Shown: positions 1-5,489 of the stretch, piece by piece | How the letters are laid out: each line of letters starts with the position of its first letter | Position numbering within the stretch: the first letter of the stretch is position 1 | Assembly (NCBI RefSeq): GCF_000703085.1 | Contig: NZ_JNLL01000001.1 | Location: 1,488,001-1,552,000, forward strand | Length of the DNA: 64,000 nt | Reading direction: 5' to 3' | Origin: Persephonella sp. KM09-Lau-8 | GTDB taxonomy: Bacteria; Aquificota; Aquificia; Aquificales; Hydrogenothermaceae | Program-made: the position numbers and the translations under genes | Notes under the pieces: generated by a model | What the model was told of the DNA's origin: nothing | Databases searched by the model: none | Seen by the model: the letters and a program-made list of their open reading frames with translations, nothing else

Positions 1-1
1 A

Positions 2-1645
2 GGAGAAGTAGCAAAGCAATACGGAAATGACTATATAGACCTTACAACCAGAATGCAGGTTGAACTGCGTTATATAAGGATTGAGGATATTCCTACTGTT
101 TTAAAGGAACTTGAAAGTGTTGGAATAACAACTTTTCAGACAGGAGTGGATAACTTTAGAAATATAGTTCAAGACCCGTTAGATGGGGTAGCCTTTGATA
201 ATGTAATAGAAACATGGGATATTCTTCTTAACATTCAAAAGATTTTCCTGAAAAATCCAGAATGGATATGCCAGCTACCAAGGAAGTTTAACATTGGAAT
301 ATCTGGCTCATACTCCAATAGATGCAATATTTACGGACATGATGCCTGCTTTGTTTTAGCAGAAAAAGATGGGATATTCGGTTTTAACGTATATCTGGGA
401 GGGAAAGTAGGAGCTATTGCCAGGCCTGCAGGGGTGTTTTTGACTGGGGGGGAAGTCCCCCTCTTTTTTAAAGCATTAGCCAGAGTTTTCAAAAAATATG
501 GTTTCAAAGATAGCCGAAACAAAAACAGGCTTAAATATATGATTGATGCTGTTGGAATGGAAGAGATTATAGATGCAGTTAAACATGAAGCTGGTAGAGA
601 ATTTGAAAAAGCAGGAAAAACCTTAACAGAAATGGAGGGAGGGGAAAAAACAGGAAAAGTTCAGCTGAAAGACGGGACATTTGCCATGCATATGGTTGTC
701 CCGTCTGGAATTTTTTCGGGAACAGCTATGATAGAGGCTGCAGAAGCTTCAAAGGAATTTGGAAATGGAGAAATAAGACTTACAGTTGCACAAAATCTTT
801 ACATACTTGGCGTTCCAGAGGAAAATATCTCTAAACTTTTATCCCTTCCTATTTACCAAAAATATAAAAATATAAACTCCCCTTATTTCAACGATGTAAT
901 AGCCTGTGCAGGAACAGAGCACTGTCCATTTGGGGTTATTCCCAATAAACCGGATGCAATAGAAGTAGCAGAGTATCTAACTCAAAACTATCCTGCTGAC
1001 CCTTCAGATACAAAAATCAGAATGTACTGGTCTGCATGCCAAAAAGGCTGCGGTATTCATGGAAATGGAGATATAGGTTTTGTAGGGGTAAAGTTTAAAA
1101 AAGATGGAGAAACAACTGTTGGTGTTGATATGTATTATGGTGGGACAATGACCGGGGAGCAGGAGGAAGGGAAGCTTTTAATAAAAGCTATTCCTTTACC
1201 AGAAGTTAAATATTATGTTGAAGAGCTTGTCCAGGAATATCTACGCCTCCAAAAGCCCAAAGAAAGTTTCGAGAAATTTTACAGAAGAGTTTTATCAAAA
1301 ATATCAAAAGAAGCTCTTAGATTTTTGATAGTTTTCAACAATCTAATGAAAAACAAAAATATCAGACTGGAAATAAACGATATTCTCCTAAATAAATCCA
1401 GTGAAGAAGAAGAAATTTTTGCCTTTGGATACCAGCTTTACAGAAAACTCACAGAAAAAGCTCCTTATACAAGACCGGATTTACTTCAGATTTACGACGA
1501 GCCTGAACCAGAAAAACCATCAAAATTAAATCCAGAAATATCAAAGGAATTTAGCGAAATAATCCTCAAAATGATAACTAAAAAACCAGAAAAAAGATAC
1601 AAGGTTTTTACTGAAATAGAGGAAGACCTTAAAAAGATAGTATAA
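2..1645 (+). CDS. nirA: Ferredoxin-type nitrite (or sulfite) reductase, 5' partial, with kinase-like C-terminal tail
   Basis: Reduces nitrite to ammonium (or sulfite to sulfide) in the cytoplasm using siroheme coupled to a [4Fe-4S] cluster. The reading frame is open to the window's left edge and already homologous there (GNDYIDLTTR), so the start lies upstream; the first ATG at 53 is internal. The cluster ligands are visible as C-x5-C (codons at 905 and 923, CAGTEHC) and C-x3-C (codons at 1037 and 1049, CQKGC). NarK and NarB follow immediately, so nitrite reductase is favoured over sulfite reductase. From about 1312 to the stop the protein has an extra tail of about 110 residues that does not look like NirA. 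It reads like subdomains IX-XI of a Ser/Thr protein kinase (EIFAFGYQLYRKL, then LNPEIS, then KKPEKRY). No kinase N-lobe, HRD or DFG is present. The family call is secure; the tail identity is by eye. Confidence 0.93.
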   Translation, partial: GEVAKQYGNDYIDLTTRMQVELRYIRIEDIPTVLKELESVGITTFQTGVDNFRNIVQDPLDGVAFDNVIETWDILLNIQKIFLKNPEWICQLPRKFNIGISGSYSNRCNIYGHDACFVLAEKDGIFGFNVYLGGKVGAIARPAGVFLTGGEVPLFFKALARVFKKYGFKDSRNKNRLKYMIDAVGMEEIIDAVKHEAGREFEKAGKTLTEMEGGEKTGKVQLKDGTFAMHMVVPSGIFSGTAMIEAAEASKEFGNGEIRLTVAQNLYILGVPEENISKLLSLPIYQKYKNINSPYFNDVIACAGTEHCPFGVIPNKPDAIEVAEYLTQNYPADPSDTKIRMYWSACQKGCGIHGNGDIGFVGVKFKKDGETTVGVDMYYGGTMTGEQEEGKLLIKAIPLPEVKYYVEELVQEYLRLQKPKESFEKFYRRVLSKISKEALRFLIVFNNLMKNKNIRLEINDILLNKSSEEEEIFAFGYQLYRKLTEKAPYTRPDLLQIYDEPEPEKPSKLNPEISKEFSEIILKMITKKPEKRYKVFTEIEEDLKKIV

Positions 1646-1658
1646 GGAGGCCATTTTA

Positions 1659-2993
1659 ATGCATAAAAAGATTGAATACCAAGGGAAAGTTATTGAGATT
1701 ACAGGTAATCCTCAGATAGGGCTTATAATGGCAACCTGGGGATTTTTTATAGGATTTGCAGCAGTTTCCCTTTATGGTCCTGTTGCAAAAAATCTTAAAG
1801 AAATTCTAGGATTGTCCGGTTTCTTAATGGGGTTACTGGTTGCTGCACCAAACCTTACAGGTTCACTCCTTAGAATACCATTTGCAGCATGGGTTGATAA
1901 GGTGGGTGGTAAAATTCCACTTGCTACACTGTTAATCCTCGCTGTAATCGGAATGGGAGGGCTATCAACACTTTTATATCTGTATTATCCAAATCTTGAG
2001 CCGTGGATGTATTGGTTAATCCTGTTTTTTGGTTTTCTAAGCGGCTGTGGAATTGCCACTTTTTCTGTTGGTATTGCCCAGACTGCTTACTGGTTTCCTG
2101 AAAGCAAACAGGGTTCAGCCCTTGGAATATATGCAGGGGTTGGGAATCTTGCCCCTGGATTATTTGGGATGATACTTCCATTTGCCCTTAAAGCAATAGG
2201 TTTAACATGGTCATATATAGCATGGTTTGGATTTTTACTTGCCGGAACAGTAATTTACATCTTACTGGCTAAGGATGCCCCATACTTCCAGCTGGTAAAA
2301 GCAGGAGTTCCCCATGACAAAGCTGTAGAGCTGGCTAAACAGCTTGGTCAGGAATTAATCCCAACAGGGGGACTTATAAGCTCTCTCAAAAACTCTGCAA
2401 GACATATACAGACATGGGCTCTGGTTGCTTTATATTTTGTTTCTTTTGGTGGATTTCTGGCATTAACAGGCTGGTTTATAGTTTTCTGGGTTCAAAGCTA
2501 TGATGTGGAGCTCAGGAAAGCAGGGCTTCTAATGGCATTTGGATTTTCACTACTTGCCTCAGTTATCAGAATATTTGGCGGATGGCTTTCTGACAAAATA
2601 GGTGGTGAACTTGTAGCAATAATGGCTTACATACTTATTTTGATTGGAGCCATAGTTGTTGTAGTGGCAGTTAACCACAATTTTATCCTTTCACTGACAG
2701 GTGAAATCCTGATGGGAGCCGGAATGGGAATTGCAAACGGTGCAGTATTTAAACTGGTTCCTAAATATGTCCCCCATGCCACAGGTGGAGCTGCCGGATG
2801 GGTAGGTGGACTGGGTGCTTTCGGTGGGTTTGTTGTGCCTCCTATACTTGGCTTGTTCGTCCAGAATCACGGAGTTGCTGGATATTCTAAAGGTTTCATT
2901 GTTTATATTGTTTTAGCCATAATCGCAATTATAATCTCAGCTGTTTTATGGAAGTTCTACGGAAAAGAGATTAACAAACCAATTGAGGATTAA
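1659..2993 (+). CDS. narK: Nitrate/nitrite transporter, major facilitator superfamily (NarK/NasA type)
   Basis: A 444-residue, very hydrophobic protein with about 12 predicted membrane segments and Gly-rich helices of the nitrate/nitrite porter family (for example GVGNLAPGLFG near residue 165 and GGLGAFGGFVVPP near 385). It should bring nitrate into the cell for NarB and NirA or exchange nitrate and nitrite. The ATG at 1659 has a strong ribosome site (AAGGAGG, 1644-1650). It starts 13 nt after the nirA stop and ends just before narB, so all three are one operon. The direction of transport cannot be told from sequence alone; the assimilatory context argues for uptake. Confidence 0.9.
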   Translation: MHKKIEYQGKVIEITGNPQIGLIMATWGFFIGFAAVSLYGPVAKNLKEILGLSGFLMGLLVAAPNLTGSLLRIPFAAWVDKVGGKIPLATLLILAVIGMGGLSTLLYLYYPNLEPWMYWLILFFGFLSGCGIATFSVGIAQTAYWFPESKQGSALGIYAGVGNLAPGLFGMILPFALKAIGLTWSYIAWFGFLLAGTVIYILLAKDAPYFQLVKAGVPHDKAVELAKQLGQELIPTGGLISSLKNSARHIQTWALVALYFVSFGGFLALTGWFIVFWVQSYDVELRKAGLLMAFGFSLLASVIRIFGGWLSDKIGGELVAIMAYILILIGAIVVVVAVNHNFILSLTGEILMGAGMGIANGAVFKLVPKYVPHATGGAAGWVGGLGAFGGFVVPPILGLFVQNHGVAGYSKGFIVYIVLAIIAIIISAVLWKFYGKEINKPIED

Positions 2994-3005
2994 AAGGTGA
3001 AAGCC

Positions 3006-5489
3006 ATGGAAAAGATAACAGCTCAGTGTCCATACTGCGGTGTAGGTTGTGGACTTGAGATATTTGAGGATAAAAAAGGCAGGATAAAAATAAAAGGAGA
3101 CAAAGACCATCCTGCCACAAAAGGAGATTTATGTCTTAAGCCAATTCCCCTTCCAAAAGTTATGGATATTGGGCGTGTTCCTGCACCTTTATACAGGGAA
3201 AATAAAAGGGATAAATTCAGGGAAATAACATGGGAAGAAGCCATAAAGATAATTGCACAGAAGTTAAAGAGAAATAAACCTGATGAAAACTATTTTTATA
3301 TCTCTGGACAGCTAACCACAGAAGACAGTTATGTAATAAACAAATTTGTAAAAGGGTTCATAGGCACAAATAATATAGATGCAAACTCAAGACTCTGTAT
3401 GGCATCTGCAGTTATGGGATACAAAATGACATTTGGCTCAGATGGACCTCCAGGAAGCTATGAGGATATAGATGATGCGGATGCTTTTGTGTTTGCCGGT
3501 TCAAATGCAGCATGGGCTCATCCTGTTTTATTTAAAAGGGTTTTAAACAGAAAAAAGGAGTATCCGGAAGCAAAAATTATAGTTATTGACCCTGTTTATA
3601 CTGCAACAGCAGAAAAGGCAGATATATGGGTGGACATAAAACCGGGAACAGACACAGTTTTGTTTAACAGTATTCTTTATCTTTTGAATAAAAAAGGCTG
3701 GCTTGATTATGAGTTTATTGGCAAGCATACAGAAGGATTTTCACAGGCTATAAAAGAAGCAGAAAAATATCCACCTGAAATAGCTGCCAAGATATGTGAA
3801 ATAAAACCAAGTCTGATTTATAAACTGGCAGAAATATATGCCTTTAGTAAAAAGGTTATCTCTTTCTGGACAATGGGGTTTAACCAGTCCTCAAATGGAA
3901 CAATGAAAAATCTGTCATTAATAAATGTTCATCTTGCAACAGGGAGAATAAATGAAAAAGGTTGCCCTTTTTCCCTTACCGGTCAGCCTAACGCAATGGG
4001 CGGCAGAGAAGTCGGTTATCTGGTAAATGGTCTTCCTGGATACAGAGATGTTAGAAATCCAGAAGACAGAGCATTTATGGAACAATTCTGGAGCTTACCG
4101 GAAGGCAGCATAAAAGACAAACCGGGAATAACCATAGTAGAAGCAATAGACAGCATGATAAATGGGGATATAAAACTCCTGTGGATTGTTTGCACCAATC
4201 CTGCCGTTACAATGCCTAATCTGAATAAATTCTGGAGAGCTCTAAGAAATACATTTGTAATTGTTCAGGATGCATATTTAACTGACTCTGTTGATTATGC
4301 AAATCTGGTTTTACCGGCGTCCCAGTGGGGTGAAAAAGAAGGGATCATGACCAGCTCAGATAGGACAATTACACATAACAAACCTTTTAGACAACCACCA
4401 CCGCAGTGCAAACACGACTGGCAGATATTCTGTGAAGTAGCAAAAGAACTGGGCTGGGAAAAGCAGTTTTCCTACAGAAATTCCAGAGAGATATTTGATG
4501 AATATAAACAAACAACAAAAGGAAGATTATGCGATATTTCTGACTGGAGCTATGAAGACCTACCTAAACAATGGGGTGGAAAATGGCTTTACAAGGACAA
4601 GAGATTTCCTACACCAACAGGAAGAGCAAAGTTTAATCCTGCAGTCTATTCAGAAGCTTCTGACAGCACAGAGTATCCTTACTCCTTTATTCTGACTACA
4701 GGAAGAACAAAAAAACAATGGCACACAATGACCAGAACAGGTAAAGCAATGGAGCTGGTCAGAGGAGAAGAAGAACCATTTGTTATGCTTAATGAGAAAG
4801 ATGCTCTGGAACTGGGAATATTTGATAACGACTACATAAATATCAAATCAACAAGGGGACAGATTTATATAAAAGCAAAAATAGGAAAAATAAAAAGAGG
4901 TGTAGTATTTGCACCATTTGGCTATGGAAAGATTTATCATTTCCCAACCAATATAACAGTAAGCGATGCTATAGACCCTATATCAAAAGAACCAGAGCTA
5001 AAATTCTCAGCAGTGTTTATAAAACCAAGAAAGAAAAGAATATACAAGCTATCAGATGAGATCTACCAGAAGGTTAAGGAAACATATCCAGAAGTTGAAA
5101 AATTTTTAGAAGATGTTCTGGAAAATAGTTTTTCCTCCTTGACAGAAGCTGAGATAAAAAATATAAAACCGGACCTTCTAAAGCAGCTTTCACAAGAAAT
5201 TAAAGAACTAATGGATATTTTTATAAACAGACCTGCTGACTGGGACAGGGCAAATCTACTTAATGAAAAAGTGGCAAATGATTATATAAAGCTTAAAATA
5301 CAGCCTAAACACCAGAGCCTGCTAACAAGCTCATTCAGGAAAGAATTTGTAAAAATATTTGATTTACCAGAAGATACAGCTCAAGCTTGGGAGTTTGCAT
5401 TTGATTTTATCTCCCACAGAATTTTTGAACTGGTAAAAAAATATTATGAAAATAAAGCATTTAAAGGAACTCAGGAGGAAACAGTTTAG
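3006..5489 (+). CDS. narB: Assimilatory nitrate reductase catalytic subunit (bis-MGD) with C-terminal globin-like domain
   Basis: Reduces nitrate to nitrite. The N-terminus carries the [4Fe-4S] site C8-x2-C11-x3-C15-x27-C43, and C131 in NSRLCMAS is the expected Mo ligand of the NapA/NasA/NarB group. Dinucleotide-binding regions continue to about residue 673. I start at ATG 3006 because AGGTGA (2996-3001) is a well-placed ribosome site; a GTG at 2997 lies inside it. There is no NADH/FAD domain or partner gene, so electrons probably come from ferredoxin. Residues of about 680-827 are an extra helical domain of about 148 aa. Its end reads like the F-G-H part of a flavohaemoglobin-type globin (KIQPKHQ, then a helix, then QAWEFAFDFISHRI). 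The residue aligned with the haem-binding proximal His is Y760. The reductase call is secure; the globin call rests on eye alignment. Confidence 0.93.
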   Translation: MEKITAQCPYCGVGCGLEIFEDKKGRIKIKGDKDHPATKGDLCLKPIPLPKVMDIGRVPAPLYRENKRDKFREITWEEAIKIIAQKLKRNKPDENYFYISGQLTTEDSYVINKFVKGFIGTNNIDANSRLCMASAVMGYKMTFGSDGPPGSYEDIDDADAFVFAGSNAAWAHPVLFKRVLNRKKEYPEAKIIVIDPVYTATAEKADIWVDIKPGTDTVLFNSILYLLNKKGWLDYEFIGKHTEGFSQAIKEAEKYPPEIAAKICEIKPSLIYKLAEIYAFSKKVISFWTMGFNQSSNGTMKNLSLINVHLATGRINEKGCPFSLTGQPNAMGGREVGYLVNGLPGYRDVRNPEDRAFMEQFWSLPEGSIKDKPGITIVEAIDSMINGDIKLLWIVCTNPAVTMPNLNKFWRALRNTFVIVQDAYLTDSVDYANLVLPASQWGEKEGIMTSSDRTITHNKPFRQPPPQCKHDWQIFCEVAKELGWEKQFSYRNSREIFDEYKQTTKGRLCDISDWSYEDLPKQWGGKWLYKDKRFPTPTGRAKFNPAVYSEASDSTEYPYSFILTTGRTKKQWHTMTRTGKAMELVRGEEEPFVMLNEKDALELGIFDNDYINIKSTRGQIYIKAKIGKIKRGVVFAPFGYGKIYHFPTNITVSDAIDPISKEPELKFSAVFIKPRKKRIYKLSDEIYQKVKETYPEVEKFLEDVLENSFSSLTEAEIKNIKPDLLKQLSQEIKELMDIFINRPADWDRANLLNEKVANDYIKLKIQPKHQSLLTSSFRKEFVKIFDLPEDTAQAWEFAFDFISHRIFELVKKYYENKAFKGTQEETV

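Follow-up and report, generated by a model that had tools for sequence, protein, structure and literature searches.

Surveys of chimeric globins recognise flavohaemoglobins and globin-coupled sensors, in which an F- or S-family globin, mostly placed at the N-terminus, is joined to a flavin reductase or to signalling domains (PMC1457004). Globins built into nitrate reductases have already been described in algae (PMC3820574, PMC6128913), and in the NR2-2/2HbN proteins of the raphidophytes Heterosigma and Chattonella a truncated 2/2 globin occupies hinge 2 of a eukaryotic-type reductase (PMC6128913, PMC9837059). In Bradyrhizobium, the single-domain globin Bjgb is encoded as a separate protein in the nitrate-assimilation operon narK-bjgb-flp-nasC and protects against the NO made by the nitrate reductase by removing it (PMC4724949). 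Aquifex aeolicus thermoglobin (7dih) and the stand-alone globins of Aquificaceae are likewise products of separate genes and carry a full set of haem residues, while the N-terminal domain of the stressosome sensor RsbR (2bnl) has a globin fold without haem.

The window, by which we mean the whole 64,000-nucleotide stretch of Persephonella DNA analysed here, encodes an assimilatory-type nitrate reductase, NarB, with a predicted globin domain at its C-terminus. As with Bjgb, a single-domain globin is tied to an assimilatory nitrate reductase, in this case in another phylum and by fusion. As in the raphidophytes, and as the preliminary description had proposed, the globin is built into the reductase; here, however, a 3/3 globin forms the C-terminal part of a NarB from the DMSO-reductase family, and some of these fusions lack the haem residues. 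Flavohaemoglobins and globin-coupled sensors share the chimeric architecture, with different partners and generally the opposite terminus. Thermoglobin and the Aquificaceae proteins share the globin family, the fold and a nitrate-assimilation gene set with narB, whereas in the window the domain is part of NarB and is without the proximal His, the CD1 Phe and the proximal triad. The likeness to RsbR, which has another partner domain, is one of predicted structure. We found no description of a bacterial NarB-globin protein in the open-licence papers searched, and earlier notice elsewhere is possible. The relevant features of the window are as follows:

1 to 1645, forward strand: NirA-like ferredoxin nitrite reductase of 635 aa, recognised by eye; its start lies 262 bases before the window
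1659 to 2993, forward strand: MFS transporter (Pfam MFS_1), nitrate/nitrite type by context, directly upstream of narB
2997 to 5489, forward strand: narB-globin fusion gene, an assimilatory-type molybdopterin nitrate reductase with a C-terminal globin domain; probable ATG start at 3006
3006 to 5021, forward strand: 4Fe-4S and molybdopterin part of NarB, to about residue 675 (Pfam Molybdop_Fe4S4, Molybdopterin, Molydop_binding); unfused homologues stop here
5022 to 5054, forward strand: linker KPRKKRIYKLS, mostly conserved across the clade with Tyr at F8 (the Tyr clade)
5055 to 5480, forward strand: globin domain, from profile match and predicted model
5241 to 5243, forward strand: codon of the Trp749 that opens the F helix; the residue is conserved within the Tyr clade, and genome G001 has TGA here
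5283 to 5285, forward strand: Tyr763, replacing the proximal His at F8, from residue comparison (Y760 when counted from the ATG)
5313 to 5315, forward strand: Gln773 at the position of Hmp Y95, in place of the proximal-triad Tyr, from residue comparison
5433 to 5435, forward strand: Val813 at the position of Hmp E135, in place of the proximal-triad Glu, from residue comparison

The three genes stand in an apparent operon in the order NirA-like nitrite reductase, MFS transporter, narB. The narB reading frame has 830 codons if it starts at the GTG at 2997, the numbering used here; the ATG at 3006, preceded by AGGTGA, is the better start and gives 827 aa. The 4Fe-4S and molybdopterin domains and the NirA-like and transporter neighbours place the enzyme in the assimilatory NarB/NasA type, and its substrate, nitrate, is assigned by context because NCBIfam scores fall below the equivalog cut-offs. 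The molybdopterin domains end at residue 669 according to Pfam and at about 675 according to NCBIfam, and unfused NarB homologues from other families of the same order measure about 654-690 aa. This bears out the earlier observation that a tail of about 150 residues (approximately 676-830) follows the molybdopterin part.

Both sequence and predicted fold identify this tail as a globin. By phmmer, the window's tail alone matched Aquifex thermoglobin 7dih (E 1.6e-6) and Campylobacter Cgb 2wy4 (E 7e-5), and a profile of 24 fused tails reached 1e-23 against thermoglobin, 4e-15 against Cgb and about 5e-11 to 1e-13 against flavohaemoglobins. Pfam Globin had no match on the window's own tail and matched 8 of the 24 fused tails; matches above its cut-off included tails with His at F8 (E ~1e-13 to 1e-15) and two with Phe. 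The weak CAAP1, Phi6_P8 and LPD39 Pfam matches of the window's tail lay below cut-off and were rejected. With a 22-row alignment, AlphaFold2 modelled the tail at pLDDT 87.8 and pTM 0.82; a model made without an alignment (pLDDT 48) was discarded. Five helices are predicted, at model residues 14-45, 52-71, 76-92, 97-114 and 119-156, where model residue 1 is residue 674. All of the top 50 Foldseek matches listed for this model were globins, the RsbR non-haem globin included, and Z-scores against bacterial globins were 13-15, the best being 14.9 for RmaNOD and 14.0 for thermoglobin; RsbR gave 12.3. Values of about 13-14 for helical models are insufficient alone as proof; here sequence and fold concur. 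The significant homology to single-domain and flavohaemoglobin globins, together with the predicted globin fold, thus characterises the tail as a true 3/3 globin domain of the F family (flavohaemoglobin/single-domain type), and the globin-like nature claimed in the preliminary description holds. The truncated 2/2 globin family (PF01152) had no match in the window's genome.

The fusion is confined to one family in our Aquificota dataset. Among 136 genomes, mainly metagenome-assembled, NarB with a C-terminal globin occurred in 29, every one from the window's own family, the hot-vent Hydrogenothermaceae (f1), which according to named records includes Persephonella, Hydrogenothermus, Sulfurihydrogenibium and other Hydrogenothermaceae MAGs; it was absent from all other Aquificota families searched. 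A stand-alone globin match was present in 10 genomes. Because the tail sits on NarB in 29 genomes, chance, low complexity and an assembly artefact are all dismissed as explanations, and the search for the same C-terminus in other Aquificales NarB proteins, suggested with the original observation, has been answered by a single family.

Beyond Aquificota two groups were sampled, 400 genomes of a Chloroflexi group and 369 genomes from the class of a Pseudomonas genome, and none of the inspected matches was a NarB-globin. Of seven match loci read in these groups, six (L129-L134) lie in chemotaxis clusters and appear to encode globin chimeras of MCP or CheA type, with Pfam confirmation limited to L129 and L130, and the seventh (L135) holds an ORF of 289 aa. 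L129:1632-4433 encodes a globin-PAS-HAMP-MCP chimera in a chemotaxis cluster, L130:2890-5382, from a gammaproteobacterial genome, encodes a CheA-type protein (Hpt, kinase, CheW) with a globin inserted at about residues 278-381, and L131-L134 are four further globin matches in long ORFs of chemotaxis clusters.

The proximal triad His-Tyr-Glu is known for its significance in Hmp, and comparison of these and the other haem-pocket positions divides the family. All 10 stand-alone globins and all five His-type fused domains have Tyr at B10, Phe at CD1, His at F8, Tyr at +10 and Glu at +50, the last two of which, from our own alignment, we take to correspond to Y95 and E135 of Hmp. In the Tyr clade, to which the window belongs, F8 is Tyr in 13/13, +10 is Gln in 12/13 and +50 is Val in 13/13; Phe at CD1 occurs in none of the 13, as against 15/15 of the stand-alone and His-type proteins together. 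The distal E7 residue is mainly Leu in this clade and the CD segment is shorter. A second set of lineages, with Phe or Tyr at F8, has kept Tyr at B10 and +10 and lost the CD1 Phe, the His and the Glu. The Tyr that had been reported at the proximal haem position (Y760, codon at 5283) lies at F8, and the window's domain departs from an Hmp-type NO dioxygenase at four places (Tyr763, Gln773, Val813 and Phe712 at B10), at all of which its His-type fused relatives retain the Hmp-type residue. The preliminary description overlooked these His-type homologues, as well as the globin of the Aquificaceae clusters described below. With them, the family forms a natural series of separate haem globin, fused haem-type globin and fused domain without haem residues. 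As a separate observation, the five His-type tails (L014, L016, L019, L023, L024) differ from the stand-alone globins in that all have Gln at E11, replacing Leu, with Leu, Val or Thr at E7, which recalls the pockets with Tyr B10 and Gln E11 seen in truncated globins.

In a NarB tree built with the tails removed, and leaving out L096 (wrong ORF), the fused proteins form a single clade (100/97). The Tyr-type proteins do so too (100/99) and sit next to two His-type proteins (92/96). The fused domains are also one clade in the globin tree (95/96). There, the Tyr clade and the Phe/Tyr clade, at which the His was lost, are reached by long branches (2.01 and 1.41 changes per column). The simplest reading of these trees is a single fusion followed by at least two later losses of the His; we state only "at least two" because the placement of G109 differs between the trees. 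Since all stand-alone relatives have His, the F8 His would have been lost, rather than gained, in the fused lineages.

The gene neighbourhoods of the stand-alone globins point to the role that may have preceded the fusion. Five Aquificaceae genomes have this globin type (L048, L049, L050, L117, L118), and in each of them the gene lies within a nitrate-assimilation cluster, where a haem-type globin is found by PII-like genes, a transporter and an unfused narB (with Pfam support for one PII and for two globins). This arrangement, with the precedent of Bjgb, makes NO scavenging the likely ancestral task. By eye, several of these clusters also contain a CynS-like gene, and ORFs of the repeated peptide FIFLIVQIL at about 12735-13504 of L048 are probably a CRISPR array read through. 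Within the window's family, a stand-alone globin (L054:1380-2245) adjoins a regulator of the Rrf2 family and an ORF that looks hemerythrin-like by eye, neighbours that suggest NO-responsive control. Compensation of the lost haem by stand-alone globins was considered and is not supported: such globins occur in some Phe-type genomes but also in a His-type one, and they are absent from the window's genome.

The fused domain has changed faster than the enzyme that carries it. Tail dN/dS was 0.06-0.22 for pairs with estimable dS, compared with 0.03-0.09 for the enzyme part, and tail dN was 1.1 to 11 times that of the enzyme part; between L003 and L006, identity was 61% in the tail and 93% in the enzyme. 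From these values the tail is under purifying selection, with weaker constraint than the enzyme part, and its retention could partly reflect that weak constraint. Within the Tyr clade, conservation covers the linker, Trp749, Pro746, Tyr763 and positions in the H helix. In G001, an in-frame TGA (L002 nt 3739) replaces the codon of the conserved Trp, TGG in the window, and is either a sequencing error or a truncation of the globin domain.

An F-family globin is fused to NarB in the Hydrogenothermaceae, and we consider it probable that the domain of the Tyr clade is now haemless, retained for a structural or regulatory role. The pre-fusion relative would have been a haem globin, encoded among the nitrate-assimilation genes, that, by analogy with Bradyrhizobium Bjgb, most likely removed NO arising when the nitrate reductase over-reduced nitrite. 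Fusion to NarB's C-terminus would go back to an ancestor of the Hydrogenothermaceae, and the haem site would then have been lost at least twice. In the Persephonella clade the normal means of holding haem seem to be gone, with the F8 His turned to Tyr and the CD1 Phe, the Y95 and E135 partners and, mostly, E7 changed, while selection has preserved the fold. The conserved linker and the F- and H-helix positions may now serve to pack the domain on NarB; stabilising NarB, or docking an electron donor or operon partner, are candidate tasks offered as a guess. The decay of the tail into a relic without present role, carried because it is harmless, seems unlikely to us: its fast change relative to the enzyme, the long branches at His loss and the TGA in G001 would fit such decay, but the tail is uninterrupted in nearly all 29 genomes, its dN/dS is low, and the linker, Trp749, Pro746, Tyr763 and H-helix positions show conservation.

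The preliminary description had left a choice between tyrosinate haem and a haemless domain, and the residue comparison favours the latter. Tyrosine can ligate haem in proteins generally, the F helix is well predicted, and F8 is Tyr in every fused domain of the clade, an invariance that neutral loss of the ligand would not demand and that is a counterpoint to the haemless reading. A ferric haem on Tyr763, similar to that of catalase or HbM and perhaps capable of peroxidase, peroxynitrite or NO chemistry, is nevertheless unlikely: the CD1 Phe and the Y95-like Tyr and E135-like Glu vanish together with the His, the CD segment is shortened, and other lineages have at F8 a Phe, which is incapable of ligation. 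For the same co-loss and the Phe of those lineages, a haemless repurposed globin is judged more likely than a tyrosinate-haem globin, the absence of haem being a deduction from sequence. If a tyrosinate haem were nevertheless present, a natural Tyr-ligated globin on a bacterial nitrate reductase would combine haem, Mo and FeS in one enzyme and bring new nitrogen-oxide chemistry. An RsbR-like sensor of another ligand or signal that controls NarB is held only tentatively, as one form of the haemless, repurposed domain; the RsbR N-domain among the fold matches, the fused position and the invariant Tyr and Trp near the former pocket would suit it, yet the pocket positions are now mainly apolar (Leu at E7, Val at +50) and a closed core fits equally.

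The fusion adds a kind of globin chimera that is missing from the surveys consulted, in which a molybdopterin nitrate reductase carries the globin at its C-terminus. It parallels the algal fusion, with both the globin and the reductase being of another type. The natural series, with at least two apparent losses of the haem site, makes two questions testable in related thermostable proteins: why globins are recruited by nitrate reductases, and what globins do after haem loss.
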